Shown here in pieces: positions 18,028 to 32,623 of a stretch of 35,774 bases of DNA. A program made the position numbers and the translations under genes. Origin of the DNA: a virus; the IMG/VR virus record IMGVR_UViG_3300032322_000623, positions 1 to 35,774 of that record; one strand, written 5' to 3'. Every line of letters starts with the position of its first letter. Position 1 is the first letter of the stretch. The notes below the pieces were generated by a model. It was not told where the DNA came from, ran no database searches, and was given only the letters and a program-made list of their open reading frames with translations.

Positions 18028-18377
18028 TACGACCCCCTCAGCTGGGAGATAAGGGACACAAGGGTGGACCGCAGCACGGCCACATCCTGGGAGAGCAACT
18101 GGAAGTCCCGCAGCAGAGCGGTGTAGTCATCCAGGGTAGGCACCTGAACACCCGAGATTGTAAAGCCACTGCCTTGCGCGGACAAGCCCTGGAACTGGGC
18201 CGCCACGGGCGGGCGCGTGGTGACGCTAGAGCGCAGCACAGCCGAGCTAGCACCGTCAGCTTCGTTGCGAATACCCGCCAGCAGTTCAACGTTCTGCTTG
18301 ATAGCGTCGAGGGTGCGGAACTGCCACTCATCCACGCCGCTCTGCGGGATGTCGGGGATACCGGTGAAGCGCGACAT
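18027..18377 (-). CDS. small virion-associated protein (116 aa)
   Basis: It begins SRFTGIPDIPQSGVDEWQF, a phrase I recall from short proteins downstream of podovirus nozzle genes. It is helical at both ends (FRTLDAIKQNVELLAGIRNE; DYTALLRDFQLLSQDVAVLR) around a central flexible part with Gly/Ser, so it could be a coiled-coil adaptor. It has no cysteines or membrane segment. Both junctions are overlaps: TGATG with the nozzle gene and TAATG with the next gene, so all three are translated together. A tail or ejection apparatus role is inferred. Confidence 0.74.
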   Translation of the reverse strand: MSRFTGIPDIPQSGVDEWQFRTLDAIKQNVELLAGIRNEADGASSAVLRSSVTTRPPVAAQFQGLSAQGSGFTISGVQVPTLDDYTALLRDFQLLSQDVAVLRSTLVSLISQLRGS

Positions 18378-20800
18378 CAGACCGTCCTCAGGCTGATCGG
18401 AGTGCCACCCAAGTAGATCGCCCGCACGCGCACAAGGCTATCGAGACCGACCTCAAAGGTGTCGGACTTGTAGCCCGTAGGCAGGCGGAACACGCTGCTG
18501 TTCGACTGGGTGGTCGTGAAGATCAACTGCTTGTTAACATAGAGCCGGAAGGTGATGGGATCTGGCGCATCCCACAGCTCCTCAGTGGCTTCCCAATTGG
18601 TCTCAACGTCCTCCCAGATGGAGGACCCTGCCAAGCCGGTGTAGTCCGCTACGATCCGCGCAGCTCCCACATTGGTGAAATCCTTGGTGATGAAGGTCTT
18701 GGACTTCCACGTCATCGTGGTGCTGGGCTGCGCCAGATCATCCCACTGGTAGATATCACCAGCGGTCCCGGCAACGGCATAGAGGTTGTTGGTTATCGAA
18801 TCGTACCACGCCGCCGTGAAGGCGAAGTCATTGTCAACGAAGGTTGGCTCAGAGCGACCAGCTCCGGGCTCGAAGGTGATCGACGCCGTAGCGTGCGAGG
18901 CGATGTAGGTGTCCTTATAGGACACGCCGATCAGCGTATCTGGGTTGAGCGCCGCGTTCCAAGTGTCGCTGCTGTGCACCAAACGAGTAAACAGCTGCGC
19001 TGCCGTCGAGGGTGCGTAGAGCACAAGACCATCGTGAGTGGCGTAGACCACGCCGAAGCTGGTTTCCACGATGCTGCGCCGGTTCACGCAAGGATAGCGC
19101 GCAGAGAGACGCGCCTGCGACATGATCGCTGGGTTCGAGCCCGAGAGGATGTACGGGTAGTCCTCGGTCAGCACGAGGAGCGAACCGCCGATCTGCGCCA
19201 GCCCAACGATGTTGCTGTCGAAGGAGCGTGCGTAATCCTCAGGCCACGCATGGAAGATGCCGGGCTCAGAGAAGTACACCGTGTTGCCAACGAAGCCCGC
19301 CAGGATGCTGTTCTGGATCAGTGTAAGGCCCTGGAGATCAGGCGGCGGTGCATCGTAGTTCGACGTGCGGAGCACGTTGGTCAGCGAGCGGAAATCGAAG
19401 TCGTCGGTGAAGGTGTAGTCGCCACCGTCGCCCCAGTAGCGCGCCGTCGTGGTCGGCGGGTTCTCCGACACATCGTAGTAGAGGTCACCCGTCGCTGCCA
19501 CGGAGGCAACGTCAGCAGCCGACTGCGCGTACCTGATGGTGTACTCATCCACCACCTCAGTGACGATGCCGCCCGTTATGTTGAAGGTGGCGTCGCTGCA
19601 CCCGCTGATCTTGAACCGATCATCCTTGAAGAGCTGGTGAGGGTAGGTGAAGGTCACCGTCGAGACATTGGTGGCTCGCGCCACGCGGTTGACGCTGTTC
19701 GGGAACCAGAGCGTGGACACGCGGAAGTACGCAGCATCGGTCGTGCTTGCGAGCGTGCGATAAAGCCGAATGCCACGGATGAAGTTGCTGCCGCTAGGCG
19801 GCACAGTCGGAAGGGTCGCCACAGTGACGACCTGCCCTTCCTTGATGAAGAGCGGGTCAGAGGGTGAGGAGCCGATGGATTCCTCTTCCCAGCCTGTGTA
19901 CCACGTGTAGAGGTACGTGCGCCCCTGAACCTGCCCACCAAGGTCGATGCGACCATCGGTGTTGGCTGTCGTCGTCACAATAGGGCCGGGCGAGAAGTAG
20001 CGCAGGGTAGTCGAGTCGATGACCGTCGCCTCGGCGGTCGTGTTAAGATCGCCGATATCCCAGCTGACATCGCCCGACGTAGAACCCGTCGCAGTGTCGT
20101 TGCAGGTGAACGTGTTCGTACCCGTCACCGTGATGGTGTAGGTATTCGAGGTCGCCGTGCCAGAGGTGAAGCGCAGCAGCACGTCAGCGCCACTGCTCAG
20201 GCCATGGCCCGTGATGGTGACCGTGATGGTCGTGCCGGTGCGGCTGTAGGTGCCGGTGCGGAAGGCGAAGCCTGTGACCGTGATCAGTGCACCAGACTTC
20301 AAATTATGCGGCGTGCTGGTCACCAGGGTAACGTTGTTACCCGCCGAGCGAGCAAACGAGGTCGTGGAGACGACCGAGAACGCTGCTGCCGTGGTGGTCG
20401 GCTTCACCGTAGGGAGCGGGAGCCCCAGCTCGTAGTAGTTGGTCGGATAGGGTGCCGTGCCCTGGGTAGCCAGTGCATAGGTGCTAACCTTCGGCACCCC
20501 ATCCCCGGTGTAGTAGAACCGCTGCTCACCCAGAGAGTCCGTCGCAGGCGTGACGATATCGACGGTATCAAGCCAGCTGAGCCAGACTAGAGCATCGGTG
20601 TCCGGGTTCCGCAGCGCGTAGAGCGTGCGGATAGTCCCAGTCCTCGCAGCGTTAGCAACAATCGTCGGCTGCGGGTACGGAATAAGATCACCAGAGTAGA
20701 GCTTGCAGTTGCGAGCAACCTGGGCAGCGGTATCCGCCAGCAGCTCCGAAGCGTTCTTCGGTGCTGTTCCCAGAAACTTGGTGATCTTAATCGCGGTCAC
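18377..20800 (-). CDS. tail nozzle/stabilisation protein (807 aa)
   Basis: This is a large beta-rich protein whose length matches T7 gp12-type nozzles (about 790 aa) and is longer than P22 gp10 (about 470 aa). Its opening is typical: FLGTAPKNASELLADTAAQVA then ARNCKLYSGDLIPYPQP, a segment shared by nozzle proteins. Residues of about 140-275 form a Thr/Ser/Gly-rich insertion that looks like Ig-like or carbohydrate-contact domains (TPHNLKSGALITVTG). The remainder shows repeated beta-propeller-like strands (GNTVYFSEPGIFHAWPEDY; GSLLVLTEDYPYILSG). The product would close the tail channel below the adaptors. It starts with GTG at 20800, four bases after the stop of the tiny Cys-rich gene. Nozzle is the best call; the insertion's function is unknown. 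Confidence 0.83.
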   Translation of the reverse strand: MTAIKITKFLGTAPKNASELLADTAAQVARNCKLYSGDLIPYPQPTIVANAARTGTIRTLYALRNPDTDALVWLSWLDTVDIVTPATDSLGEQRFYYTGDGVPKVSTYALATQGTAPYPTNYYELGLPLPTVKPTTTAAAFSVVSTTSFARSAGNNVTLVTSTPHNLKSGALITVTGFAFRTGTYSRTGTTITVTITGHGLSSGADVLLRFTSGTATSNTYTITVTGTNTFTCNDTATGSTSGDVSWDIGDLNTTAEATVIDSTTLRYFSPGPIVTTTANTDGRIDLGGQVQGRTYLYTWYTGWEEESIGSSPSDPLFIKEGQVVTVATLPTVPPSGSNFIRGIRLYRTLASTTDAAYFRVSTLWFPNSVNRVARATNVSTVTFTYPHQLFKDDRFKISGCSDATFNITGGIVTEVVDEYTIRYAQSAADVASVAATGDLYYDVSENPPTTTARYWGDGGDYTFTDDFDFRSLTNVLRTSNYDAPPPDLQGLTLIQNSILAGFVGNTVYFSEPGIFHAWPEDYARSFDSNIVGLAQIGGSLLVLTEDYPYILSGSNPAIMSQARLSARYPCVNRRSIVETSFGVVYATHDGLVLYAPSTAAQLFTRLVHSSDTWNAALNPDTLIGVSYKDTYIASHATASITFEPGAGRSEPTFVDNDFAFTAAWYDSITNNLYAVAGTAGDIYQWDDLAQPSTTMTWKSKTFITKDFTNVGAARIVADYTGLAGSSIWEDVETNWEATEELWDAPDPITFRLYVNKQLIFTTTQSNSSVFRLPTGYKSDTFEVGLDSLVRVRAIYLGGTPISLRTV

Positions 20801-20803
20801 TGA

Positions 20804-20953
20804 TTACTTCTTCTTACCGGCCATAGCGCAGGCGCCAGCAGCGCGGCACTTGGCGGGGGAGGGGCAGTTCGCACACGGCTTGAAGCCCTTAACCATGCCA
20901 CCCTTCTGGTAGGATGCCATCGCTGCCTTGGTCTTCGGCTTACCACGCATCAT
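20804..20953 (-). CDS. tiny Lys-rich protein with four cysteines (49 aa)
   Basis: This is a very basic small protein starting MMRGKPKTKAAMASYQKGG and ending in GKKK. The cysteines are spaced CANCPSPAKCRAAGAC (C-x2-C-x5-C-x5-C), compatible with a tiny metal-binding knuckle. The double ATG at 20953 is chosen because AGGAGAGAG sits just upstream. An in-frame ATG at 21007 would add 18 residues, but it has no ribosome site and would read through the hairpin. It lies alone between the lysis cassette and the nozzle gene. Similar tiny basic genes occur at 30438-31094. Nucleic-acid binding or head packing is only a guess. Confidence 0.7.
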   Translation of the reverse strand: MMRGKPKTKAAMASYQKGGMVKGFKPCANCPSPAKCRAAGACAMAGKKK

Positions 20954-20956
20954 CGG

Positions 20957-20965
20957 CTCTCTCCT
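20957..20965 (-). promoter_or_regulatory. strong ribosome binding site for the tiny Cys-rich gene
   Basis: On the minus strand AGGAGAGAG stands four bases before the ATG pair at 20953. It decides the start in favour of the 49-residue product over the longer form. Confidence 0.65.
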
Positions 20966-20971
20966 AAATGA

Positions 20972-20992
20972 CCGACGCTGTGAAAGCGTCGG
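20972..20992 (-). terminator. 8-bp hairpin upstream of the tiny Cys-rich gene
   Basis: CCGACGCT and AGCGTCGG pair around a five-base loop. On the minus strand it is followed by TCATTTAGG, which is too weak a T-run for a classical terminator. It sits in the 106-base gap between lysin and Cys-rich gene and could protect or tune the downstream transcript. Confidence 0.4.
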
Positions 20993-21002
20993 GACGAATA
21001 CT

Positions 21003-21032
21003 TTCATACCGCGAGGTCTAGCGAAAGGTCAC
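21003..21032 (-). promoter_or_regulatory. weak candidate sigma70-like promoter
   Basis: On the minus strand GTGACC and TATGAA, each 4/6 to the consensus, are separated by 18 bases. The position, in the longest gap of the late operon ahead of the nozzle and ejection genes, makes sense. The match is poor and may be chance. Confidence 0.2.
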
Positions 21033-21044
21033 TTACAAACCGCA

Positions 21045-21057
21045 CGGCTGGAAGCCG
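21045..21057 (-). terminator. short hairpin after the muramidase stop
   Basis: CGGCT/AGCCG forms a 5-bp stem with a 3-base loop, starting three bases after the muramidase stop codon. On the minus strand it is followed by TGCGGTTTGTAAG. At best this is a leaky end of the lysis cassette. Confidence 0.28.
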
Positions 21058-21059
21058 GA

Positions 21060-21575
21060 TCAGTGCTTGGCCATACGCATGGCAATCTCACCCACATCGC
21101 TCACACGCCGGGTCCAGCCCTTGCCAAAGGTAGCGAAGGTTGGAAGGGCCTCAAGGAAGTGCTGGCGGTTGCGCTGGTAGGTCTCGATCAGGGTGGCAGG
21201 GTTCTGTGCCTGCACGGCGGCCAGCGTCTTGGGGCCAATCGCGCCATCGGGCACTGCACCCACCGCAGACTGGAGCAGCCGCACAGCCCGGCCAGGGCCG
21301 CTATTCACCGCCATGTCGAACACAACGTAATCCACACCAGCGGGGAGGTCATCGCCGCGCACAGCATCCCAGTAAAGGGTCTTGTAGATCGCCTTGAGAT
21401 GCTCGTCAGGGATAGCCCGAAGCTCTTCCTTCGACGCCGGGCGACTTAGCCACGTCGAGTAGGTCTTGAGGGTGACGCCCTTCATGGTCGCGCCGCCAGG
21501 ATCAGCAGGGTGGTCAGCCCAACCACCTTCATGCTTCAGCACGTGGGGGAGGCTGGTGTCGAAGTTGCCCTTCAT
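21060..21575 (-). CDS. endolysin: GH108-type muramidase with peptidoglycan-binding C-terminus (171 aa)
   Basis: This enzyme cuts the peptidoglycan sugar backbone at lysis. The N-terminal glycoside hydrolase 108 signature is clear: VLKHEGGWADHPADPGGAT carries the catalytic glutamate E16. The helical middle (LKAIYKTLYWDAVRGDDLP) is usual for the family. From about residue 86, FDMAVNSGPGRAVRLLQSAV and DGAIGPKTL match the associated peptidoglycan-binding domain. Length is typical. There is no signal peptide, so export depends on the holin. The start overlaps the holin stop as ATGA, giving a holin-endolysin pair translated together. Confidence 0.93.
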   Translation of the reverse strand: MKGNFDTSLPHVLKHEGGWADHPADPGGATMKGVTLKTYSTWLSRPASKEELRAIPDEHLKAIYKTLYWDAVRGDDLPAGVDYVVFDMAVNSGPGRAVRLLQSAVGAVPDGAIGPKTLAAVQAQNPATLIETYQRNRQHFLEALPTFATFGKGWTRRVSDVGEIAMRMAKH

Positions 21576-22093
21576 TTGTCGCTCTTCAATACCTGATTGA
21601 GCTGCTGGGTCTTTTCGCGGGACCCAGCTGAGGAGCCAAAGTAGTAGCTAATGATAGCACCCCAGGCGGTCCCAAGGGTACCCAGCATAACAAGCATCGC
21701 CTCGCCGCCATTGGCAGGGAGACCGTAGGAGATCATCCAAGAGAGGACGCCGAAGAAGCCAAGCGTGACAGCCGCTGCCAGGGCACGCGGGGTCCAGTCC
21801 CCAACCTTAATCTCACGCTCACGGGCACTGTTGCGGTCGGCAGCGTCGATGCGCTGGATATCAATCTCCAGCTCCTTCATCCGCACCGTGAAATCTTGTT
21901 CGGCCTGCTTCAGCGCCAGCAGTTGCTCTGGCGTGGCAGTCTTCGCGGCCTCGACCAGTTCGTCCTCAGTGCCATCCGGCTTACCCAGCAGGGCTTCGGA
22001 GATCGCACGGGTCGCCATACCCGCAAGCGGGCCGCCAACGGCAGTGGCGATGGACGGTGCGACCGTCCTAACGAGGTTGAGGAGCGGTTCCAT
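21572..22093 (-). CDS. holin of the 3-TM (gene-transfer-agent) type (173 aa)
   Basis: The layout matches the 3-TM holin family named from gene transfer agents. A weakly hydrophobic N-terminus (IATAVGGPLAGMATRAISEALLG, read in parts) is followed by a charged helical linker (LLALKQAEQDFTVRMKELEI). Two strong transmembrane helices come next, at about 105-125 (ALAAAVTLGFFGVLSWMISY) and 132-153 (MLVMLGTLGTAWGAIISYYF), before a polar tail. It would open the inner membrane to let the muramidase out. The start overlaps the upstream membrane coiled-coil gene by 26 bases, and the stop overlaps the muramidase start. Confidence is high from the membrane layout and neighbour. Confidence 0.85.
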   Translation of the reverse strand: MEPLLNLVRTVAPSIATAVGGPLAGMATRAISEALLGKPDGTEDELVEAAKTATPEQLLALKQAEQDFTVRMKELEIDIQRIDAADRNSAREREIKVGDWTPRALAAAVTLGFFGVLSWMISYGLPANGGEAMLVMLGTLGTAWGAIISYYFGSSAGSREKTQQLNQVLKSDK

Positions 22094-22559
22094 TCCGGGA
22101 CTCCAAGAGGGCTACACGCCGTTCAAGCTCGTTGATCGCGCGTGTCAGGTCAGCACGGATAGCTGCGCGAGCAGCAGCCGCATCGGCAGCCATCTCAAGG
22201 CGGCCACGTTCAATGCCTGCCATGCTGCGCTCGCGGTCCAGCGTCATGTTGCCCCGCGCAATAGCGGCGTCCCGCTCCACCTGCTCGATCCGGTTGGACA
22301 GATGCTCGCGGATCTGGGCCATGTCGATGGTCGTGCCCTGCGGCGGGATCGCCCGGTTGTCCTGCGTCACAACCACCGCAACACGGGACTTGAGGATGGT
22401 GATCTCTTGGTTCGCCGAAGATAGGGAGGTCATCAGGTAGACGACGCAGCTAAAGAGGATCGGGATAGCGGCGAAGACGACCTTCTCGATCAGCGCGCCC
22501 TTCGAGGCGTTGGCCGCCATCTGCTCCGACATCTGTGCCTGCTTGGCGGCATCCGACAT
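22068..22559 (-). CDS. membrane-anchored coiled-coil protein of the lysis cassette (163 aa), possible spanin-like
   Basis: A 25-residue polar N-terminus precedes one transmembrane helix (VVFAAIPILFSCVVYLMTSL, about 27-46). A long coiled coil follows (SSANQEITILKSRVAVVV; IREHLSNRIEQVERDAAIAR; LTRAINELERRVALLESR). One membrane anchor plus a periplasmic coil is the plan of an inner-membrane spanin (Rz), and it lies directly upstream of holin and muramidase. However, no outer-membrane lipoprotein partner with a lipobox was found in or near it, so the spanin role is only a hypothesis. It may instead be a holin regulator or virion protein. The start follows GGGGATAAGCGCC. Confidence 0.7.
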   Translation of the reverse strand: MSDAAKQAQMSEQMAANASKGALIEKVVFAAIPILFSCVVYLMTSLSSANQEITILKSRVAVVVTQDNRAIPPQGTTIDMAQIREHLSNRIEQVERDAAIARGNMTLDRERSMAGIERGRLEMAADAAAARAAIRADLTRAINELERRVALLESRNGTAPQPR

Positions 22560-22571
22560 GGCGCTTATCCC

Positions 22572-22739
22572 CTAGTGCAGCTTGAAGGCTATACCGGCCA
22601 AACCGGTAATGATGGCACCTGCCGCGACCATCAGGATGGTTTCAAGCCGCTTTAGTCGCGCGTTAATGGCCTCATAGCGCAACTGACACACGGCCTCATG
22701 GGATTGCAGGCGGGCCTCAGTTTCGCTGATCTGGACCAT
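22572..22739 (-). CDS. small coiled-coil protein with C-terminal membrane anchor, XhlA-like (55 aa)
   Basis: Residues 1-34 are charged and helical (SETEARLQSHEAVCQLRYEA; INARLKRLETI), and residues 36-53 form a hydrophobic helix (LMVAAGAIITGLAGIAFKL). This plan is like the XhlA family of lysis-associated phage proteins. The ATG at 22739 is chosen because GGAG in the preceding stop region (GCGGAGTAGGCCG) provides the ribosome site; a longer version starting upstream has none. It lies five genes upstream of the nozzle gene, in the lysis group. A lysis accessory role is likely but not proven. Confidence 0.68.
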   Translation of the reverse strand: MVQISETEARLQSHEAVCQLRYEAINARLKRLETILMVAAGAIITGLAGIAFKLH

Positions 22740-22743
22740 CGGC

Positions 22744-22911
22744 CTACTCCGCAGGAGCAATCGTGAGTTCGCCAGCCGCCACCAGCGCCATGATGTTCTG
22801 GTAGTCGGTGTTCGCCGGGTCGAGCGGCACGAAGCTGGTTATGCCAGCGATGTCGCAGCGGATATGAGTGTTTTGCCCATCAGAAGCAATGTACTGAGCG
22901 TTTGTGTACAT
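22744..22911 (-). CDS. short phage protein of unknown function (55 aa)
   Basis: Translating the gap between fibre and lysis genes gives MYTNAQYIASDGQNTHIRCD, then a beta-like IAGITSFVPLDPANTDYQNI, and AALVAAGELTIAPAE-type ending after ...IMALVAAGELTIAPAE. The phrase FVPxDPANTDY recurs in short proteins beside tail-fibre genes of aquatic phages, so it is likely a real gene. It starts three bases after the fibre stop (TGAGCTATG) and ends in TAG four bases before the next start. It may be a fibre chaperone or tip protein; this is inference. Confidence 0.7.
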   Translation of the reverse strand: MYTNAQYIASDGQNTHIRCDIAGITSFVPLDPANTDYQNIMALVAAGELTIAPAE

Positions 22912-22914
22912 AGC

Positions 22915-24069
22915 TCAAAGCTCCGACGCTGCGGTGAAGTGGAACAGAGCGGTATCCTGTGTGTATCCCGTTCCCGGATACATCAAAAAATTATTCTCGC
23001 CCAAAGCTAACCCGCCCGCACTAGTTCCGGGAGACACATTGTCAGTCCAAGACCCGGCAGAATAGTTACTAAACTTTGTGCTATTACCGGCCCTGTCCCA
23101 GTAACTGAGCGTCGGTGCAGCGCGTTTGGTCACGCGGAAGGTGTTGCTGCTGGGGATTACGCGAGCGTTTGAGTAGAAAGCCGTGCCGCCAACAAGACCC
23201 GCCGCTGTGTTGGTGCCTGGAACTGTGCCAACGGCATAGCTTTTCTCATAATACCTCTGGCACAGCGCCAGTTCCTGCCCGTACTGCCTGCGTTCAAACG
23301 GCGTTGCGGCGGTTCCGACTTCAAGCTGGACGCCGGTCAGGTAGAGGGTAGCGCCAGATGTGGCCGTTACGTTGACTGCTCCAGTGGCCCCCCTAAAGAT
23401 ACTCGTAGCCCAAACGCCTGCCGTTCCGCTGACAGACGAACCAGCACTAAGGCTAAAATGGACAGCAATCCCAATACTGTTGTTGGTTGCCCACAACCCA
23501 GAGGTTTCGCCGGGTATAGTAACCGTTTTGTATTCCCAGGTGTTTGCGGCTGTTATCGTGTAGGTGAATGGATAGGATCGAGTTCCCCCTCCGTTATAGA
23601 TAGAACCAGAAAAGGTGCCGGTCAGAGAGCTTCGAGCCCAAAAGGAAAGTGTGACAGGCTGGGCTCCAGCGGAACCCCACCCAAGGTCAGCAGAGTTAAA
23701 CCCCTCAATACCTTGGATACAGGCACTAAACTGACCCGCAGAGGGAGAGTTTGTGCCAGACGAAGTGAAGCCGAGATAGTTGGTGAAGCCGGGTGGGGGC
23801 GTCACGCTGCCAGCATTTTGCTGCCAAGTGATCGGGAGCGACATATTGGTAGAGTGAACCCACCTATCCACCGTATAGGCAGACGCGGTGCCGCTCGCCC
23901 CGGCATTGCGCTGGTCGATCTCCATCGCGCCATTGATGATCCGGTTCCGCAGGAAGGACGACGCCATCGCCGCAGTGCCCGCGAAGGTCGCGTTGCCCGA
24001 AGCGTCGAGGACGATGTTGTTGCTCGCAGAGGCGGCGTTCTTGAGGTTGGTAGCCTGTAGGGTGGACAT
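22915..24069 (-). CDS. tail fibre protein with C-terminal binding module (384 aa)
   Basis: The N-terminus STLQATNLKNAASASNNIVL and the following LDASGNATFAG resemble the shaft start of many short fibres. FLRNRIINGAMEIDQRNAG (about 40-58) opens a beta-rich domain with many aromatic and Thr/Ser/Gly residues, resembling a carbohydrate-binding sandwich (LSFWARSSLTGTFSGSIYNG). The phrase YLTGVQLEVGTAATPFERR (about 244-262) and LCQRYYEKSY are widespread in phage fibre ends. Its base composition is visibly richer in A/T than the neighbouring capsid and ejection genes. It likely contacts the host surface. Starts by TGATG overlap with the preceding gene. Confidence 0.82.
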   Translation of the reverse strand: MSTLQATNLKNAASASNNIVLDASGNATFAGTAAMASSFLRNRIINGAMEIDQRNAGASGTASAYTVDRWVHSTNMSLPITWQQNAGSVTPPPGFTNYLGFTSSGTNSPSAGQFSACIQGIEGFNSADLGWGSAGAQPVTLSFWARSSLTGTFSGSIYNGGGTRSYPFTYTITAANTWEYKTVTIPGETSGLWATNNSIGIAVHFSLSAGSSVSGTAGVWATSIFRGATGAVNVTATSGATLYLTGVQLEVGTAATPFERRQYGQELALCQRYYEKSYAVGTVPGTNTAAGLVGGTAFYSNARVIPSSNTFRVTKRAAPTLSYWDRAGNSTKFSNYSAGSWTDNVSPGTSAGGLALGENNFLMYPGTGYTQDTALFHFTAASEL

Positions 24070-24449
24070 CAGGGGGTCTCCTCAATGACAGGAACCCAGG
24101 ACAGCGTAGTTTCATCCCAAGTATAGAGGTGGTCAGCATCGCCAGGATAGGGGATTGGCGCTTCCCACTGGCAAGTGCTTTCGTTCAGCACCCAGCTTGC
24201 ATAGGGCTGCGGCGGGACGAAAGCGTCGCGGCCAGCGTCATAGCTGTAGCCAACGCCCCCATAGTTCTTGCGGAAGTTCCCGTTGTAGCTGGTCTGAGCC
24301 CAGTGGGTGTTGGCACCAAAGAGAGACTGGCAGAACGCCACACCCAACGGCTCGCTCTCGGGGAACGACAGATCGTTGATCTCGACGTTGCTGACGACGA
24401 TGACCTGGGTGACCACCCCAGCAGCATCCAGTTGCGCGAAGTGAGCCAT
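24069..24449 (-). CDS. fibre-associated small protein, MAHFAQLD type (126 aa)
   Basis: It starts MAHFAQLDAAGVVTQVIVVS, a recognisable opening of proteins found with the tail-fibre genes of many aquatic phages. The middle (WAQTSYNGNFRKNYGGVGYS) and end (NESTCQWEAPIPYP, then YTWDETTLSWV) also fit that group, with regular Trp/Tyr turns. It could be a fibre tip, an attached subunit or an assembly chaperone. No lab-proven function is known to me. Overlapping TGATG junctions on both sides couple it to the Gly-rich adhesin and the 384-aa fibre, so the three probably form one adhesion unit. Confidence 0.8.
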   Translation of the reverse strand: MAHFAQLDAAGVVTQVIVVSNVEINDLSFPESEPLGVAFCQSLFGANTHWAQTSYNGNFRKNYGGVGYSYDAGRDAFVPPQPYASWVLNESTCQWEAPIPYPGDADHLYTWDETTLSWVPVIEETP

Positions 24450-25294
24450 CAGAAGGTGATGCTCCCCGATCCGGTCCAGGTGTAGATGCGGAAGCCGCCC
24501 GACACTGTGACAGTGGGCGATCCGGTGGTTGCTGCCGCTGCATCAAAGGTGTCCGCATAGCGGATGATGACGATGCCAGAGCCGCCATTGCCAGCCGTGC
24601 CGGAAGAAGTGCCGCCGCCGCCACCACCTCTGTTTGATGTGCCCGCAACAGCATTGCCTGATCCTACCGCGCCAGCACCACCGCCACCCGACCCACCGGA
24701 ACCGGCGGTGTCAGGCGCAGAAAAGATGCCGCCACCGCCACCGCCTGCATAGGTAACAGACGCCCCAGAAATACTTGAGGCAGTGCCGTTGCCGCCATTG
24801 CCTGCTGCTGTTGATTTCGGGACACAAGTTCCACCAGCGGCGCTCGCGCCACCGCCACCGCCGCCGCCAGCCGGGGTGCTTGTAAAGCTAGAGTCGCCGC
24901 CAGCATTTCCTTGGCCAGCGGTCCCAGCGCCGCCGCTGCCAACAGCACCGCCTGAGGCCCCAGTTCCGCCGCCGCCAGAGCCGCCCGAAGCGCCGTTTAG
25001 GGTATTCGTTCCGGCTCGACCGCCACCTGTAGACGTGATTGAACTGAAGACGGAATCCGAGCCGCTGGTGGGGGAAGTTCCGCCCGTGCCGCCACCACCA
25101 ACAGTAACGGTGATTGCAGAGCCACTGCTGACTGCAAAGCCAGATGCAGTTCTAAATCCCCCGGCACCGCCACCGCCGCCGCCTCGATTAAGCAGGGCAC
25201 CGCCACCGCCACCGCCAGCGACGACAAGGTATTCAACGGTTGATGGCGGGTTTGGCGGTCTTGGCGTGCCCAGGAACATCTGCTGGAGGGGCAT
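24449..25294 (-). CDS. glycine-rich fibre/adhesin with polyglycine segments (281 aa)
   Basis: After a short start (LGTPRPPNPPSTVEYLVVAG) the chain from about 26 to 240 is dominated by runs of glycine separated by Ser/Thr/Ala loops (GGGGGGALLNRGGGGGGAGG; GGSGGGGTGASGGAVGSGG). This pattern allows a polyglycine-II bundle as seen in the T2/S16-type gp38 adhesin, where glycine helices pack and the loops between them bind receptor. The end is ordinary beta sequence (GIVIIRYADTF; SGGFRIYTWTGSGSITF), and YLVVAGGGGGG with SGIVIIRY are known bookends of Gly-rich phage proteins. It is probably a receptor-binding tip. The loops are the likely variable part. Confidence 0.84.
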   Translation of the reverse strand: MPLQQMFLGTPRPPNPPSTVEYLVVAGGGGGGALLNRGGGGGGAGGFRTASGFAVSSGSAITVTVGGGGTGGTSPTSGSDSVFSSITSTGGGRAGTNTLNGASGGSGGGGTGASGGAVGSGGAGTAGQGNAGGDSSFTSTPAGGGGGGGASAAGGTCVPKSTAAGNGGNGTASSISGASVTYAGGGGGGIFSAPDTAGSGGSGGGGAGAVGSGNAVAGTSNRGGGGGGTSSGTAGNGGSGIVIIRYADTFDAAAATTGSPTVTVSGGFRIYTWTGSGSITF

Positions 25295-25842
25295 CAGGTA
25301 AGACCCGCACCGCTGATGACGAAGGTGTTGGAGGCGACGCAGAGGATGGTGCAGATGCCGCGTTGAGCAAGTGTCCGGTTGCCGGTCGTCGCAGTGCCAC
25401 CAAGGTACATCGTCACGCTGCCGCCCTGCGTGATCGTCTGGCTGCTGCCGCTGTTATTGTAGATGCTGATCGCATCACCAGCACCAAATATGCCCGAATT
25501 GACCGTCACGCCACCCGTGGTGATTGAGATGTGCCGACCAGCGTCAGCCGCGACCAGCACATAGGCACCGGTCTGCGCATTCTGCGGGACCGACCGCACA
25601 TCACCTTTGCTGTCACGGATCGCACCAACCACGTCGAGCTTGGCAGCGGGAGAAACGGTGCCGATACCGACATTGCCACTACCGTCGATCCGCACGACCT
25701 CCGCGCCGCCTTCGGCGAACGCGATCTGGTCAGCCGCAGGGAAGAACATCCCGGTGTTAGTGTCGGTGCCCTGGACAGCAGGCGTTGCGGCAGAGCCGTC
25801 CGTGCCAGAGATGCCGGTGGAGCCGTTGATGATCACGGGCAT
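25294..25842 (-). CDS. short fibre protein with VGIGT module (182 aa)
   Basis: It opens PVIINGSTGISGTDGSAATP, a common start for small phage fibres. It then has a shaft-like module with VRIDGSGNVGIGTVSPAAKL followed by DVVGAIRDSKGD, closely like modules in the fibre gene at 26610-27389. The C-terminal half is beta-rich (RHISITTGGVTVNSGIFGAG; SGSSQTITQGGSVTMYLGG) and may be a small jelly-roll tip. It is bounded by TAATG and TGATG overlaps. Its role as a fibre segment or receptor-contact subunit is inferred from the modules and from neighbours. Confidence 0.8.
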   Translation of the reverse strand: MPVIINGSTGISGTDGSAATPAVQGTDTNTGMFFPAADQIAFAEGGAEVVRIDGSGNVGIGTVSPAAKLDVVGAIRDSKGDVRSVPQNAQTGAYVLVAADAGRHISITTGGVTVNSGIFGAGDAISIYNNSGSSQTITQGGSVTMYLGGTATTGNRTLAQRGICTILCVASNTFVISGAGLT

Positions 25843-26018
25843 TATCGGGCCTCCACAGCGTCAAGCTGCTCTTGCGTGGGGCGAGGCAGCGTCGGGTGGT
25901 TCCAGGCGGCGATATAATCGCCACGGCCATCGCTGTCGTTCTGGAGCCGGATGACGGTCAGAAAGTCCTGCGTCACCAACGTGGGGTAGATCGCCATGAT
26001 CTTGTCGTAGAGGCTCAT
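25842..26018 (-). CDS. small fibre-cassette protein, XkdW-like (58-59 aa)
   Basis: Translation gives MSLYDKIMAIYPTLVTQDFL, then VIRLQNDSDGRGDYIAAWNH and PTLPRPTQEQLDAVEAR. The ending PxPTxEQLDA with an aromatic WNH just before it is typical of XkdW-type and tail-fibre-assembly-related short proteins. Two adjacent ATGs (26021 and 26018) overlap the preceding stop, giving 59 or 58 residues. The stop overlaps the next start as TAATG. It fills what would otherwise be a 175-base gap. A chaperone or fibre attachment role is inferred. Confidence 0.78.
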   Translation of the reverse strand: MSLYDKIMAIYPTLVTQDFLTVIRLQNDSDGRGDYIAAWNHPTLPRPTQEQLDAVEAR

Positions 26019-26608
26019 CATGCAGCCCTCACAAGAACACCCTGGAAGTAGCTGTTAGTCCCGCCGCCACCTTCGACGCTCAACGTGCTGCCAGAGTCTT
26101 GATATGCGTACAGCTCAACATAATCGCTGGAGCCGTTAAAATAAACCAACGCGGAAACAGCCGACGCTTGGCCCGAACTTGCGGCACTTCCAGACTGTGT
26201 TCCGCGCTTAAACTCAGAGCCGTTCTTATATATCGAAGTGATAAGAATAGCGGCGGCTCCCGTCATTTTAACTTCACCGTTAATTTGATAATACCCAGCG
26301 ACTGTTGGGGTGAAGCGATAGTTTGTGGCGTTGTCGTAGTTGGAGTTGGTATCAAACTCTTCAGTGTTCGCTTGAACTTTTGTCCAAGTAGCGGTGTTGG
26401 CCGTTTGGTTCGTGCTGCGGTACGCGCTGAACGCAGGCCCATTGCCCGCCACGCTGCCTGCCAGCATCGTCTGCGTGACGACGCCCGTGCTGCCCGTGGT
26501 CACAGCTGTACCGCCGGTTGTCGGCAGAAGCACCGTGGTGTTGGTCGCAGTGGCGGTCGTGTCTAGCGTGACGGAGCCGCCACCGGAGGAGTTGAGGCGT
26601 ACAGGCAT
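26018..26608 (-). CDS. fibre protein with C1q/TNF-like C-terminal domain (196 aa)
   Basis: The first 60 residues are a Thr/Gly-rich shaft (LLPTTGGTAVTTGSTGVVTQ). From about residue 57, AFSAYRSTNQTANTATWTKV begins a C1q/TNF-like jelly roll. Its key strands are visible as YRFTPTVAGYYQINGEVKM, and SDYVELYAYQDSGSTLSVEG near the end, closing with SYFQGVLVR. Such domains form trimers in many phage head and tail fibres and bind surface ligands. The DNA of this domain is visibly more A/T-rich than its own shaft, hinting at exchange. One base separates its start from the preceding stop. Confidence 0.82.
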   Translation of the reverse strand: MPVRLNSSGGGSVTLDTTATATNTTVLLPTTGGTAVTTGSTGVVTQTMLAGSVAGNGPAFSAYRSTNQTANTATWTKVQANTEEFDTNSNYDNATNYRFTPTVAGYYQINGEVKMTGAAAILITSIYKNGSEFKRGTQSGSAASSGQASAVSALVYFNGSSDYVELYAYQDSGSTLSVEGGGGTNSYFQGVLVRAA

Positions 26609-26609
26609 C

Positions 26610-27389
26610 TCAGACCACCGTCCATGTGCTGCCCGAAGGGACCGTCACGACCGCGCCAGAGGCTACGGTAACGGGACCAAAGGTACCAGCATTCTGACCG
26701 CTCGGGATGGAGTAGCTGTTATTGATCGTGGTGCTGTTCAGATAGAACGCCTGATCACCACCGCCGCCCGTTGCGCCGCCACCGATACTGCCCCAGGCAG
26801 TGCCGTTGTGGCCCTCAAAACTGCTGAGCGAACTGTTATAGCGGAGGTAGCCGGTCGCACCCGTGGGGCGCTCACCGGTCGTACCAACAGGCACCAGGAT
26901 CGCATCGGTGCTGCTGATAGCCAGCTTCACCGCCGGGGTGGGCGTACCCACGCCAACGTTACCAGTCCCCGTCACGACGAATGGGGTGGAGTCCGTGCTG
27001 GCTGCATCCTCAACAACCAGGGCATTACCTGCGCCGGTCTGCGTGATGCGAAGCGCATCCGAAGAGGAGTTGTCGGTGATCGCCGCTGCGCCCACTACAT
27101 CGAGGCGCACACCCGGCGAGTTCGTACCGATACCAACGTTCCCGCTCGCATCGACGATGAGCGGTGTGGAGTCGGGGTTAGCCTCATCCTCGACGAGGAG
27201 TGCAGCACCGGTACCCACCTGCGTGATCCGCAGAGCGGTTGAGGTGCTGTTGACGTTAACGACCGTAGGACCAGTGAGGGTACCCCCACCGGTCTCCAAC
27301 TTGTCGCTGTTCAGGTTGGTAAAGTTCGCATCCACCTCAGCATTTGTGAGGGGTGAGCCCTTACCAGCCCGGGTGATGATTGTTGCCAT
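26610..27389 (-). CDS. fibre protein with repeated VGIGT-type modules (259 aa)
   Basis: The start GKGSPLTNAEVDANFTNLN is a common N-terminus of phage fibre proteins and probably serves attachment. Two similar modules follow: ALRITQVGTGAALLVEDEAN with DASGNVGIGTNSPGVRLDVV, then ALRITQTGAGNALVVEDAAS with TGTGNVGVGTPTPAVKLAIS. After them comes LRYNSSLSSFEGHNGTAWGS, a known end-of-shaft phrase, and a small C-terminal beta domain. It has no chaperone-type peptidase signature (no S-x-K or D/E dyad seen). It starts after GAGGTTTAG. It most likely is a shaft subunit carrying the downstream tip proteins. Confidence 0.83.
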   Translation of the reverse strand: MATIITRAGKGSPLTNAEVDANFTNLNSDKLETGGGTLTGPTVVNVNSTSTALRITQVGTGAALLVEDEANPDSTPLIVDASGNVGIGTNSPGVRLDVVGAAAITDNSSSDALRITQTGAGNALVVEDAASTDSTPFVVTGTGNVGVGTPTPAVKLAISSTDAILVPVGTTGERPTGATGYLRYNSSLSSFEGHNGTAWGSIGGGATGGGGDQAFYLNSTTINNSYSIPSGQNAGTFGPVTVASGAVVTVPSGSTWTVV

Positions 27390-27399
27390 CTAAACCTCG

Positions 27400-27858
27400 T
27401 CAGGCCGAGATCGTCACAGTCCAGGTAACCTGGAGCGTGTCGGAGGCGCCCTTGTTCACCACCGAGAACACCGTGCGGCAGAGCATGGTACCAGAGGTAG
27501 AGGCATTGAAGATACCGGCTTCGGTCACCGCGCCAGTGGCTTCGCCCGCGTTGAAGGTAGTGACGTAGACGATATTCTCGTTGTTCGAGCCGGTGCGGTT
27601 GGCGCTATCGAACGTCTTGCGCGAACCAAGCGCAGAACCAAGAGCGGTATCACCGGCAGCAGCAGGCGACGTACCAGCGCCAAGACCCATGTGGCTCATC
27701 ACGTTCTGTGAGGTGCCCACCATGCGGGAGGTGATGTGGTCAAGGCCGGTGTTCACAACGAGGTTCTTCACCTCGCGCACATCCTTCACCTTCCCATCTG
27801 CGCCCTTCAGCACGATGGTTAGGCGGCCCGTCATACCCAACTTCTCAACCGGTCCCAT
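27400..27858 (-). CDS. small tail/virion structural protein (152 aa)
   Basis: The order of conserved-looking phrases (LTIVLKGADGKVKDVREVKN, LVVNTGLDHITSRMVG, MSHMGLGAGTSPAAAGDTAL, VTEAGIFNASTSGTMLCRTV and NKGASDTLQVTWTVTIS) identifies a widespread phage structural protein found beside fibre genes. The chain is beta-rich, with no membrane or catalytic motif. A perfect-looking TAGGAGGACACC lies before the ATG and includes the upstream stop. It may cap or connect the fibres. The family is recognised, but its exact position in the virion is not known to me. Confidence 0.8.
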   Translation of the reverse strand: MGPVEKLGMTGRLTIVLKGADGKVKDVREVKNLVVNTGLDHITSRMVGTSQNVMSHMGLGAGTSPAAAGDTALGSALGSRKTFDSANRTGSNNENIVYVTTFNAGEATGAVTEAGIFNASTSGTMLCRTVFSVVNKGASDTLQVTWTVTISA

Positions 27859-27867
27859 GGTGTCCTC

Positions 27868-28506
27868 CTAGGTAAAGGCGCGAGAGACGCCCACATAGTC
27901 CTCGGCGAAGTAGCTGATGTCGCAGTAGTCCTGCATCACCAGGATACCGCTATCCGAGGCTACCGGCTGGTCTATGATAACAAGCCTGGGCGCCAAAGCA
28001 ACGACATCTAGCAAGCTGGCCGTATCCGTGGGTAACTTACCTACGGAGCGTACGGACGTATCAGCCAGGGCAGCAGTGTCAGCAAAGCCCTTGGTTATAG
28101 AGCGGGTAGCAGCATCTGCCGCCGTCGCGGTATCGCTCGGGTTCTTTCCAACCCGCCGAGACGTGGCGTCTGCGACAGAAAAAGTATCGCTAAAGGACCT
28201 TGGAAAAAGAAATGCCAGTACGTCACTAACTACAGCAACGTCAGCAAGTACCTTTCCAATACTTAGCGCAAAAGGAACACCGACATATCCTGGATCGGTA
28301 TAGTCCTCAGCGAAGTAGGTCTCACCTTCTGACACCCGTGCGGTATCAGTGATGAACTTCTGCTTAAAGAACTCACCTAGGGCATAGCGAAAACTGATGT
28401 AGGGAACGACAACTGCCGCCCCGATGACCCCAGCCTTATAGGCAGCAGTGACCGCTGCGGTGCGAACGACCGCCCGGATGCGCCTAAGGGTAGGGTCTAT
28501 CCTCAC
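27868..28506 (-). CDS. structural protein with exact 18-residue repeats (212 aa)
   Basis: I recognise a repeat protein but no named function. Residues 87-176 are five consecutive 18-residue units of the form xxDTxxxxDxxxRxxxKx (for example FSDTFSVADATSRRVGKN, PSDTATAADAATRSITKG, FADTAALADTSVRSVGKL). The motif YFAEDY stands on both sides, at 64-69 and 199-204. The N-terminus has a hydrophobic stretch (AAYKAGVIGAAVVVPYI). Regular D, R/K spacing suggests a stacked beta-solenoid or coiled rod. It lies between an Ig-like protein and fibre genes, so a fibre or tail rod is likely. The start is GTG, overlapping the upstream TGA as GTGA. Confidence 0.77.
   Translation of the reverse strand: MRIDPTLRRIRAVVRTAAVTAAYKAGVIGAAVVVPYISFRYALGEFFKQKFITDTARVSEGETYFAEDYTDPGYVGVPFALSIGKVLADVAVVSDVLAFLFPRSFSDTFSVADATSRRVGKNPSDTATAADAATRSITKGFADTAALADTSVRSVGKLPTDTASLLDVVALAPRLVIIDQPVASDSGILVMQDYCDISYFAEDYVGVSRAFT
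27979..28248 (-). repeat. five tandem 54-bp (18-codon) repeats, diverged at DNA level
   Basis: The repeats encode residues 87-176 of the structural protein: units begin LADV, FSDT, PSDT, FADT and PTDT, all exactly 18 codons. Only the protein pattern (D-T, D, R and K positions) is kept; the DNA units are not near-identical, so the array is old. The first and last units are the most diverged. Confidence 0.82.
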
Positions 28507-28853
28507 GCAAACTGATCTCTGAGCCTGAACTTCAGCACATCATAGACCGTCTGCCGCATACCGGTGGAGAACAGCACCTCAACCTCACCGTCATAGTCGC
28601 CCGGCGTCTGGCTCAGATCCGAGGCTCCCCAGACCACTAGGGCAATCCCCTGTGTGGCCGTGCCAGCGGGAATAGTCAGCGGGCGGCTAACCACCACAGT
28701 CCCGGTGGCGAGCGACTTCATGTAGAGGGTTGCCGTCGCACCGCTCAAGTTGATAGGCGACCCGGTGCTCTCATCCGTAAGGGTGAGTTGGATCTGCGGC
28801 CCAGTGTCGTTCTTAACCAACCGGATACGGTTGTCGGTGATGCGAGGGTCCAC
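28503..28853 (-). CDS. small Ig-like protein, BppU-N-like (116 aa)
   Basis: The phrases IRLVKNDTGPQIQLTLTDES, PINLSGATATLYMKSLATG and PGDYDGEVEVLFSTGMRQTV are characteristic of the beta-sandwich found at the N-terminus of BppU-type baseplate/upper tip proteins and in short stand-alone phage proteins. Here it is a stand-alone domain. It probably decorates or joins tail parts. The start is GTG six bases after GGAGG. Its last bases overlap the repeat protein's GTG. The fold is well supported by pattern; the partner is unknown. Confidence 0.76.
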   Translation of the reverse strand: MDPRITDNRIRLVKNDTGPQIQLTLTDESTGSPINLSGATATLYMKSLATGTVVVSRPLTIPAGTATQGIALVVWGASDLSQTPGDYDGEVEVLFSTGMRQTVYDVLKFRLRDQFA

Positions 28854-28862
28854 GGCTACCTC

Positions 28863-29534
28863 CTAAGCAAACGGCGGGAACCGCACGGAGAGGGACCCCC
28901 GGAACACACCAAGGTTGGCCTGCGCCCGCGCCTCGTTCAGCGTGAAGATGAACTGCTTGGCATGGTAGGTGGCCAGCTCACGATCAGACCACTCCACCTT
29001 CGGCATTACCAGAAGGTTCTGGAGCGCCGAGTGCATGATGGGCAGCTCGTACTCGTCGAACACACCCTCATCCATCTCCAGCGCACTGCGCGAGGGCTTG
29101 AGGGCGTAGATCATCCGCAGGGTGTAGGTCACCGCTGCGTCAGGTGCGGGGAGCACGATGTAGCGATGCACATCGACCTGCGCGACCGAACGCGGCTCAG
29201 TGCCGTTCTCTTCGATATCCTGGCTCGTCGTCGAGGTGACCGGCCATGTCGGGTAGAGGTTTCGCGCGTCGTCGAGGGTGAGGATCTCAAGCGGCGAGTT
29301 ATTCAGCGTCGCCAGCAGCACTGCCTGCACCTGCGTATCAGCGGGCTTGTTGAAGTTGTATTGGTACTGCCCCGGGGTCAGGTTGAACACGGGCTGCTCA
29401 TAGCGCCAGATGAGGGCGCGCTCGCACACCCGGATCGCAGCATCACGGATGTACTGAACGATCAGCGGGTAGGGGCAACCCGGCACACTGGCGCTGACCT
29501 TAGCTGAGAGGGTGGAGAAGGCACGGGATGCCAT
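28863..29534 (-). CDS. head-tail adaptor/tail tubular-type protein (223 aa)
   Basis: This is a T7 gp11-like adaptor by pattern. Helices at the start (LIVQYIRDAAIRVCERALIW) are followed by a beta-rich centre (LTPGQYQYNFNKPADTQVQA). The end has helices around YELPIMHSALQNLLVMPKVE and WSDRELATYHAKQFIFTLNE, then a conserved RAQANLGVFRGSLSVR. This protein would sit below the portal and connect to the nozzle. ATG at 29534 is chosen because GCAGAGGTAGG precedes it; a GTG six bases upstream (29540) falls within the previous gene's stop. It is co-translated with the preceding adaptor. Confidence 0.82.
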   Translation of the reverse strand: MASRAFSTLSAKVSASVPGCPYPLIVQYIRDAAIRVCERALIWRYEQPVFNLTPGQYQYNFNKPADTQVQAVLLATLNNSPLEILTLDDARNLYPTWPVTSTTSQDIEENGTEPRSVAQVDVHRYIVLPAPDAAVTYTLRMIYALKPSRSALEMDEGVFDEYELPIMHSALQNLLVMPKVEWSDRELATYHAKQFIFTLNEARAQANLGVFRGSLSVRFPPFA

Positions 29535-29536
29535 GA

Positions 29537-30172
29537 TCACCTACCTCTGCTCGGCATACGCTCGTTATCGAGGACCGCCTGCTGCTGGAGATCCACGCCG
29601 AGCGCACTGGTGAAGGAATCCTGGAACAGCTTGGCGCGGTTGGAGTTCACATGCTCATCGTCGATGGACGAGGCGAGGAACACCACGCCATCCACCACGA
29701 CGCCGAGATAGGTGTCCTTCAGATACAGGATCGTCTGGTTGATGGTGTAGGCAATCGGCTCCACCACGTACTCAACCGTTGCCGTCAGGTTGGCGATGGG
29801 GCGCGGGTAGAGAAAGAACTTGGTCGCGTTGCGCGGATGGCGGATGAAGTTGAACGGAATGCCAGAAGGATCGGACACCCACTGTGGGTAGGCCCGCTCC
29901 AGCACCTCGCGCTCGACCTCATTGACTGAGTTGTAGTTGTCAATGAAGAACACCTGCACCAACCGATGCGCATCGGAGGGCAGATCCTGGATCACCGTGT
30001 TGGCCGTTAGCGGCACGCTGGTGATGTTCGTAAACAGCGTCGGACGGAAGACAGCCATCCGCTTCAGCGTCTGGTTCACATACCCCACGAGGTCTGTGTC
30101 GCTGTAGCGGTAGGGCGCCTGGGTATCCTGGAGGAGCTTACGCGCCTCCACGATCACGTCCGAAGGTGTCAC
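29537..30172 (-). CDS. phage adaptor protein (211 aa)
   Basis: The N-terminus SDVIVEARKLLQDTQAPYRY followed by SDTDLVGYVNQTLKRMAVFR is typical of podovirus adaptor proteins that ring the portal base. A beta-rich middle (FFIDNYNSVNEVEREVLERA; KFFLYPRPIANLTATVEYVV) and a helical end (FLASSIDDEHVNSNRAKLFQ) follow. Together with the next gene it gives the two adaptors usual between portal and nozzle. It begins with GTG overlapping the upstream stop as GTGA. Its stop is two bases before the next ATG. Confidence rests on layout and position. Confidence 0.82.
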   Translation of the reverse strand: MTPSDVIVEARKLLQDTQAPYRYSDTDLVGYVNQTLKRMAVFRPTLFTNITSVPLTANTVIQDLPSDAHRLVQVFFIDNYNSVNEVEREVLERAYPQWVSDPSGIPFNFIRHPRNATKFFLYPRPIANLTATVEYVVEPIAYTINQTILYLKDTYLGVVVDGVVFLASSIDDEHVNSNRAKLFQDSFTSALGVDLQQQAVLDNERMPSRGR

Positions 30173-30435
30173 GGGAGCCCCCTCGAAGCCTCAGCGTTGA
30201 GCGCCTCGTTCGTGTAACCGGGCTCTTCCGGGATGTCAGCCGTGAACAGGTCCACGGGCTCCCGCTTCTTCCGACCACGCTTGGCGGCAATAGCTTCGAT
30301 GGCAGCAACAGGGATGAAACGTTCAGGGTACGCCTCTTCCTCCGTCACCTCATAGAGATGCGGGTTCTTTGCCAGGATGGGGTCCCACTCGAAGATCCAC
30401 CCATCCTTCCGGCTCTTGAGGTAGCGAATGGTCAT
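30169..30435 (-). CDS. small unknown protein before the adaptors (88-89 aa)
   Basis: The protein starts MTIRYLKSRKDGWIFEWDPI and contains PHLYEVTEEEAYPERFIPVA. The RKDGWIFEWDPILAKNP phrase recurs in short phage proteins near head-tail joining genes. A longer in-frame start lies inside the previous gene, but the ATG at 30435 follows a GAAGAAGAAGG site and the upstream stop by two bases. The middle carries a basic KRGRKKREP patch that could bind DNA or the head interior. Function unknown; head completion is the best guess from position. Confidence 0.72.
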   Translation of the reverse strand: MTIRYLKSRKDGWIFEWDPILAKNPHLYEVTEEEAYPERFIPVAAIEAIAAKRGRKKREPVDLFTADIPEEPGYTNEALNAEASRGLP

Positions 30436-30437
30436 GG

Positions 30438-30671
30438 TCAGACCTTCTTCTTCCGCCCAGAGGGCGTAACGGGCCAAGACTGCCGGGCAGGCCCAGTCTT
30501 GCGCGCAGCCACAGATCGCTTCTCAGCAGTGGTCATTTTAGCAGCAGCGGCCTTCGGGCGGCAAGCAGGATAGCCCCGGCGGTCCTTATCACCTGAGCGC
30601 CCGCACTCCTTGCCGGTCTTCACATCGACCCACTTCTCGCCGAACCACTTGCCGAGCCCGCCCTTAGCCAC
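30438..30671 (-). CDS. tiny basic protein, WFGEKWVDV type (77 aa)
   Basis: Key phrases are GGLGKWFGEKWVDVKTGKEC and DRRGYPACRP, followed by a Lys/Ala-rich end (GPARQSWPVTPSGRKKK). The two cysteines near YPACRP and TGKECGR suggest a small metal or nucleic-acid-binding fold. In some giant viruses and phages this block follows another short block in one chain (a DUF5872-like protein, named from memory); here that other block is the overlapping upstream gene. The start is taken as GTG at 30671, which overlaps the upstream stop (GTGGCTAA). A GTG at 30713 would add 14 residues. Function unknown. Confidence 0.68.
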   Translation of the reverse strand: MAKGGLGKWFGEKWVDVKTGKECGRSGDKDRRGYPACRPKAAAAKMTTAEKRSVAARKTGPARQSWPVTPSGRKKKV

Positions 30672-32014: not shown

Positions 32015-32037
32015 AGCGGGCTCCCAAGTAAAAAGGA

Positions 32038-32061
32038 GAATAGGGGCCTAAGCCCCTATTC
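32038..32061 (-). terminator. 10-bp hairpin followed by T5, terminator-like
   Basis: GAATAGGGGC pairs with GCCCCTATTC around a 4-base loop, one base after the stop codon of the head protein gene at 32063-32578. On the minus strand TCC TTTTTAC follows, giving a short T-run. It probably reduces transcription from head genes into the downstream fibre-like gene. Confidence 0.65.
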
Positions 32062-32062
32062 A

Positions 32063-32578: not shown

Positions 32579-32598
32579 GTCCTATCTCCTGTTGGAGA

Positions 32599-32618: not shown

Positions 32619-32623
32619 CCGGG

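Follow-up and report, generated by a model that had tools for sequence, protein, structure and literature searches.

The adhesin gene and its place in the window

The window, which is the whole stretch of viral DNA analysed here (IMG/VR record IMGVR_UViG_3300032322_000623, 35,774 bases), carries an array of tail-fibre genes that includes a glycine-rich gene, referred to below as the adhesin (Table 1). The original prediction of a glycine-rich protein at 24449-25294 was correct, but the gene lies on the minus strand; the plus-strand frame at these coordinates contains many stops. The protein has 93 glycines, of which 87 fall among the 215 residues at positions 26-240 (40%). The glycine runs are 6, 6, 4, 3, 4, 7, 6, 4, and 6 residues long, and the stretches between them are rich in Ser, Thr, Asn, and Ala. 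As read from the sequence, the adhesin start overlaps the stop of the upstream fibre gene by one base (TGATG), and the adhesin stop overlaps the start of the downstream partner gene in the same manner (TGATG). A proline-rich plus-strand ORF of 172 aa (24783-25301) is an antisense shadow of the adhesin glycine codons and illustrates a route by which genes rich in such codons can be mis-annotated.

Table 1. Features of the fibre array and related genes in the window
Feature	Position	Strand	Length	Basis
Gly_rich_2 (PF21722, phrog_2295) adhesin	24449..25294	minus	281 aa	one complete ORF, ATG to stop
Adhesin N-terminal tail, residues 1-18, proposed plug for the preceding fibre	25241..25294	minus		lowest-confidence part of the model; tracks the upstream C-terminus
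Glycine-lattice core, residues 19-247, with nine variable loops	24554..25240	minus		alignment; fold match to Pam3 gp24 and Bxb1
C-terminal beta-hairpin cap, residues 248-281	24452..24553	minus		same hairpin precedes the core in canonical relatives
Partner gene, phrog_7759, proposed fibre chaperone	24069..24449	minus	126 aa	phrog_7759 E 2.7e-44; directly downstream of the adhesin
Upstream tail-fibre gene	25294..25842	minus	182 aa	phrog_9942 and phrog_18345 tail fibre
C-terminal 50 residues of the upstream fibre, proposed socket domain	25297..25446	minus		same end in locus L089; pairing test
Further fibre gene of the same array	22915..24069	minus	384 aa	phrog_4492 tail fiber E 1.5e-55
Further fibre or adaptor gene	26018-26608	minus	196 aa	
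Further fibre or adaptor gene	26610-27389	minus	259 aa	
GP4 fibre-I-like protein	27400..27858	minus	152 aa	PF23140 E 1.1e-4, 23 bits, below the cut-off of 27
Tail nozzle homologue	18377..20800	minus	807 aa	chain 8jov_A, E 1.3e-56

The nozzle homologue is accompanied by a 211-aa protein (29537-30172) that matches chain 8jov_2 of the same structure (E 8.2e-9), which we take to be the tail of podophage GP4. These two matches and the GP4 fibre-I-like gene, whose score is below the cut-off, support a short-tailed phage with GP4-like nozzle and adaptor homologues. The record is probably incomplete, because the contigs of four relatives measure 55-57 kb. A megablast search of window positions 18000-35774 against phages found no match. 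Elsewhere in the window, a minus-strand gene at 6270-13622 encodes a virion-type protein of 2450 aa, which has PHROG matches solely to families of unknown function and repeated QFGPxAPEQFGPFGP-like segments in its N-terminal quarter.

Family and fold of the adhesin

The adhesin matches the Pfam family PF21722 (E 2.7e-22; 80.3 bits against a cut-off of 24.3), with residues 14-246 aligned to positions 11-225 of the 226-position profile, and no other Pfam family was found at E up to 0.1. It also matches phrog_2295 (E 2.8e-46), the function of which is listed as unknown in PHROGs. A phmmer search against PDB sequences returned chance hits only. Tblastn with the whole adhesin and with its last 45 residues found no match in annotated phages, and a PF21722 search of the window's own record found none either, despite the score of the protein itself. 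These tblastn and own-record misses are taken as low-complexity filtering or a loose first look, not as absence.

Structure prediction had been proposed as a check on whether the chain is disordered. The AlphaFold2 model, built on alignment A1 (described below), is confident (pLDDT 94.8, pTM 0.90) and ordered; its lowest-confidence part is residues 1-10 (mean pLDDT 74). Only 18 residues precede the first strand, and the model contains no helix. By DSSP the glycine runs lie outside strands and helices, which agrees with polyglycine-II packing without proving it.

The best structural match is the tail tip of mycobacteriophage Bxb1 (9d93, chain Qb), with a VIA-align Z of 13.4, an rmsd of 3.0, and 37% identity over 164 aligned residues; it covers model residues 15-247 (Foldseek E 2.5e-4). 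The Pam3 fibre gp24 (7ypx_A) follows with a Z of 12.0 and an rmsd of 2.5 over 163 aligned residues, covering residues 16-252 (Foldseek E 0.054; sequence profile E 0.0099). The next matches are the glycine-rich domains of ALK/LTK, at Z 4.0-5.3. Predicted viral structures gave 136 matches at E up to 0.001, and the best 50 of these 136 are mostly annotated phage glycine-rich domain proteins, including those of HTVC025P and Bellamy. The fold was also found among predicted proteins of algal viruses.

The earlier comparison with a gp38-like glycine sandwich holds for a folded glycine-lattice adhesin and for structural kinship with the solved receptor-binding tips of Bxb1 and Pam3; kinship with gp38 itself was not found. 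Direct membership of the gp38 family was rejected on sequence, as PF21722 is the only Pfam family found. Gp38 of phage S16 is absent from the Foldseek and VIA matches listed and from the sequence-profile matches, an absence that does not amount to exclusion. Gp38 is better regarded as an analogue in function and general architecture than as a demonstrated family of the adhesin.

Conserved glycines and variable loops

Relatives were picked by the sequence pattern at the start and end of the core. From 73 viral-contig loci, 43 non-redundant relatives were retained and aligned with the window to give the 44 rows of A1. The 87 core glycines of the window have a mean identity of 0.82 (median 0.95) in this alignment, against 0.40 for Ser, Thr, and Asn, 0.38 for Ala, and 0.36 for the remaining core residues (glycine versus other residues, Mann-Whitney p 1.7e-18). 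Because the glycines are kept across the relatives while other residues vary, the glycine pattern is selected and not a product of compositional chance.

Each of the nine loops has 40-43 distinct sequences among the 43 relatives, and loop lengths also differ, for example, 2-15 or 4-18 residues. With loop borders drawn by eye on A1, and thus with some circularity, the difference is larger in loops than in blocks for all 946 pairs, with means of 30% in the framework and 83% in the loops. With the same by-eye borders, the closest pair (L048 and L060) differs by 2% in the framework and 22% in the loops. The glycine-versus-other test is free of such circularity. As expected, glycines are kept and loops vary across the 43 relatives, and the reverse pattern did not occur. 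Conservation in the alignment is particularly high at the first core residues.

Tandem arrays of at least two glycine-rich adhesin genes with different loops were observed at eight loci (L009, L016, L024, L038, L041, L050, L062, and L141), and the partner gene often comes after the last member of such arrays.

Position of the C-terminal hairpin

The last 33 residues of the adhesin were turned into an HMM, and natural relatives were compared. The hairpin precedes the core in canonical relatives (L049, E 5e-8) and follows it in proteins of the window type. From 191 unique glycine-rich ORFs, 44 without anchors and 12 with several domains were removed, leaving 135 single-domain ORFs. By HMM the hairpin lies only after the core in 120 of these and only before it in 6; none has it on both sides, and 9 have it on neither. 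Inspected by eye, two of these nine carry the hairpin before the core, and the rest have a variant tail after it. Some two-domain proteins (L026, L109) hold the hairpin between their domains, which offers a route for its change of position. These arrangements suggest that the adhesin is a circular permutation of its canonical relatives, with the corresponding rearrangement presumably extending to the three-dimensional structure.

Pairing of the N-terminal tail with the upstream fibre

The comparison set the final 50 residues encoded by the upstream gene against the first 14 of the adhesin. It was limited to pairs without tandem glycine-rich neighbours, with tails of 10-45 residues and cores of 200-330 residues; removal of redundancy from the 62 pairs left 59 loci with a short-tailed adhesin, including the window. 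Similarity of the N-terminal tail follows that of the upstream C-terminus, with a Mantel r of 0.69 that none of 5000 permutations reaches. The correlation is 0.15 between the tail and its own core and 0.28 between the upstream C-terminus and the core. Within the largest class of 18 loci, upstream end and tail correlate at 0.79, and upstream end and core at 0.02. Counted more crudely, 38 of 59 loci have their nearest upstream relative within the six most similar tails and 18 of 59 have their nearest core relative there, where chance would give about 6. Tails of the MxxQQMF type pair with upstream ends in FVISGAGLT or GVT (window, L089, and L159), MSGALQAVFQNQRSFG tails with ends in WLISGSGLT, MQILAFGG tails with ends in VVVGNLSA, and MPPILSAFGAASARGFG tails with ends in TVLAAQTKFA.

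The simplest functional reading of this pairing is that the tail docks into the end of the upstream fibre. The main rival is genetic linkage, in which recombination breakpoints at the conserved core start keep tail and upstream end together and no docking takes place. In the window, no more than about 60 bases separate the conserved core start from the upstream stop, and the strong conservation of the first core residues would suit such breakpoints. Linkage could explain part of the pairing; as its only cause it is possible but rather unlikely. At a comparable distance the tail does not track the first 60 core residues (r 0.15 versus 0.69), and the pairing persists inside a single class. Socket, tip, and partner are also common to the window and L089, whose fibre N-termini differ.

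The partner gene

The partner belongs to phrog_7759, a family listed with unknown function in PHROGs, and has at least 600 matching stretches in viral contigs, of which at least 593 are confirmed relatives. In loci fetched with the adhesin, a protein of the MAHFA type commonly stands directly after the glycine-rich ORF or, in tandem series, after the final one, and 41 non-redundant partners were taken from these loci. In the reverse test, 80 loci fetched with the partner alone gave 81 partner ORFs, 4 of them cut by contig ends. A glycine-rich ORF directly precedes the partner in 65 of the 77 evaluable cases (62 by HMM and 3 by composition); the other 12 have another gene (11) or nothing (1) at this place. 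Several partners that lack the glycine-rich gene have a 2OG-Fe(II) oxygenase there instead.

Among annotated phages, 39 records contain the partner, and 18 regions were examined. A PF21722-type gene lies directly upstream by HMM in 12 of these isolate regions and is missing from that position in 6; Pfam confirmed PF21722 in the 9 genes scanned out of the 12. HTVC025P and CRP-143 have this gene order. A glycine tip had been considered less expected in a short-tailed phage, a view that finds no support in these short-tailed isolates (Autographiviridae) with PF21722 genes; such a tip is not unusual there.

The partner model is confident (pLDDT 94.3). Its first Foldseek and VIA match is the Pam3 chaperone (7ypx_a; Z 5.5, rmsd 1.8, 54 aligned residues) over partner residues 1-79, a match that is weak alone (Foldseek E 1.2), and Mu Tfa (5yvq_B) is matched weakly (Z 2.5). 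The model lacks the helical C-terminal trimerisation domain of gp25; at its C-terminus it has beta-hairpins in which Trp, Tyr, and Pro are conserved. No Pfam family was found for the window partner, although DUF1579 matched weakly in 2 of 42 members, and a PDB sequence search found nothing relevant, so that membership of the Tfa or gp25 sequence families was not obtained. The adhesin leads to Pam3 gp24 and its neighbour, independently, to the Pam3 chaperone, which adds weight even though neither partner match is strong alone. By this analogy, the partner is probably a folding and assembly chaperone of the adhesin. Co-evolution of partner and adhesin core is not claimed, since their similarities correlate at only 0.12 (not significant; 720 of 5000 permutations reach this value).

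A phrog_14370 match is common to the partner and to small genes that follow glycine-type proteins in L086, L081, L019, and L066. An oxygenase-type gene directly precedes the partner in L122, L137, L144, L150, L151, L153, L158, L168, and L171; PF13759 was confirmed for L171, and the other loci were judged by a similar start. In cyanophages P-RSM4, S-TIM4, S-MS29, and S-CAM8 (L177, L178, L180, and L184), the phrog_7759 homologue stands beside 2OG-Fe(II) oxygenases and not beside a glycine-rich gene. It follows a gene annotated as ferrochelatase in the first three and as hypothetical in S-CAM8.

Turnover of the fibre cassette

Relatives of the nozzle protein are encoded in fifteen loci. The flanks of L074 and L082 are 90-100% identical to the window (nozzle 96%, endolysin 97%, GP4-type fibre 100%, and the 259-aa fibre 95%), and between these flanks they carry a different fibre cassette without such an adhesin gene. 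L086, a relative just as close, encodes a fusion of a PF21722 domain (E 7.6e-11) with a fibre adaptor that starts with MPVRLNSS. L089 has fibre, adhesin, and partner in the order of the window, and its upstream fibre combines the same C-terminal domain with a different N-terminal adaptor.

Upstream of the nozzle gene in L079, L087, and L077, the lysis genes beside the fibre cassette are replaced as well, and another lysozyme-like gene of about 215 aa occupies the place of the window's 171-aa endolysin.

Proposed role of the adhesin

Very probably, the adhesin sits at the end of a tail fibre and its nine variable loops contact the host of this virus of aquatic bacteria. The fuller reading is likely, namely that it is a detachable fibre tip of a short-tailed phage, with a tail that plugs into the fibre, a phrog_7759 chaperone, and exchange as a cassette. 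The glycine runs, packed as extended strands in a lattice, would form a stiff stem, presumably in a trimer, and the nine hypervariable loops would sit at its distal end and contact the host surface. Stem and receptor-surface loops are proposed because of the analogy with Pam3 gp24 and Klebsiella TFP_Y. By precedent, the receptor may be a polysaccharide such as LPS. The short tail would plug into the C-terminal domain of the upstream fibre, and the phrog_7759 product would act in folding and assembly. Socket, plug, tip, and chaperone would be exchanged between phages as one cassette, while within the tip the loops would change and the lattice would stay. Fold, conserved lattice, variable loops, gene order, pairing of the tail with the upstream end, and turnover of the cassette are computed results; the trimer, receptor, docking contact, chaperone action, and three-dimensional permutation are inferred.

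Three other readings bear on this proposal. The adhesin may be the tip while the phrog_7759 protein is a lasting virion component, with a structural role or as a second subunit in contact with carbohydrate, and does not act as a transient chaperone. The C-terminal hairpins of the partner and its lack of a helical trimerisation domain would fit this, as would its place beside oxygenase genes in some cyanophages, and phage Mu Tfa is reported to remain on the fibre tip (PMC10579305). It is nevertheless unlikely, given the likeness of the partner's N-terminal half to the chaperones Pam3 gp25 and, weakly, Mu Tfa. A general decoration of head or tail, or a weak surface adhesin with no role in host specificity, is considerably less probable. 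The occurrence of the fold in predicted algal virus proteins leaves room for such a role; set against this are the position of the gene inside a tail-fibre array, the rapid exchange of its cassette, and loops much more variable than the framework. That the ORF is low-complexity, disordered, or spurious is suggested by its glycine runs and by the tblastn and own-record misses, but it is hardly credible beside the confident model, a glycine register kept in 43 relatives, and one-base overlaps with both neighbours.

If the detachable-tip reading is right, phrog_2295 and phrog_7759, which are common in marine and freshwater phages, gain testable roles as receptor-binding tip and fibre chaperone. 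It would then be possible to assign tips to fibres from the sequences of plug and socket classes, and in uncultured phages the residues likely to touch the host could be recognised by the loop pattern. A wider proposal is more tentative, with the chances slightly against it: a plug-in adhesin system widespread in aquatic phages, composed of permuted tips, class-specific plugs, and phrog_7759 chaperones in one travelling cassette. If true, the cassette is passed among phages with short and with contractile tails, fibre class can be predicted from plug class, and phrog_7759 is a new family of fibre chaperones. The fold itself is known; the partner family, plug classes, permuted cap, and pairing rules look new. 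Neither the PF21722-phrog_7759 pairing nor a plug-socket rule was found named in the accessible parts of the literature searched, which does not prove their absence from it.

Comparison with known systems

In T-even phages, gp38 (Salmonella phage S16, PDB 6F45) is a separate polypeptide that forms the fibre tip and combines a glycine lattice with hypervariable loops. The window adhesin resembles it in being a separate tip gene directly after a fibre gene and in its variable loops. The Bxb1 protein, the closest structural match, is presumably part of a siphophage tail tip and not a separate podophage fibre tip. ALK/LTK receptors have the same general TNF-like and glycine-helix arrangement; they are animal receptors, and the match is weak and has no functional link. 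In phage SU10, the term 'glycine-rich' refers only to a capsid loop, as far as the accessible text of that paper goes (PMC9509320).

A short-tailed parallel is provided by Pelagibacter phage HTVC025P (MH598799), in which gp43, with PF21722, is followed by gp44, a phrog_7759-type protein, with a one-base overlap. Both are annotated as hypothetical. Unlike the window adhesin, gp43 (538 aa) has an extra Ig-like domain (He_PIG) and lacks the short plug tail.

Klebsiella myophage SCNJ1-Y represents another phage type with a known receptor, and its likeness to the window adhesin is drawn from one paper alone (PMC12671077). There, TFP_Y is described with gp24-like TNF-like and glycine-rich domains and LPS as the receptor, and mutations in its glycine-rich domain are host-range mutations that changed which LPS triggers DNA ejection.

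A parallel for both adhesin and partner is cyanophage Pam3. According to the available text on this myophage (PMC9608196), gp24 has a conserved glycine stem, a variable tip, and an N-terminal helical domain for the baseplate, and works with the chaperone gp25; its authors aligned only 52 C-alpha atoms between gp24 and gp38. Gp24 (PDB 7ypx, 7yfw) and the window adhesin have the TNF-like and glycine-rich fold in common, and the N-terminal domain of the Pam3 chaperone is the best fold match of the window partner. Where gp24 has a baseplate-docking helical trunk, the window adhesin has only its 18-residue tail; its C-terminal hairpin is not covered by the alignment, and the window partner differs from gp25 in having no helical C-terminal domain.
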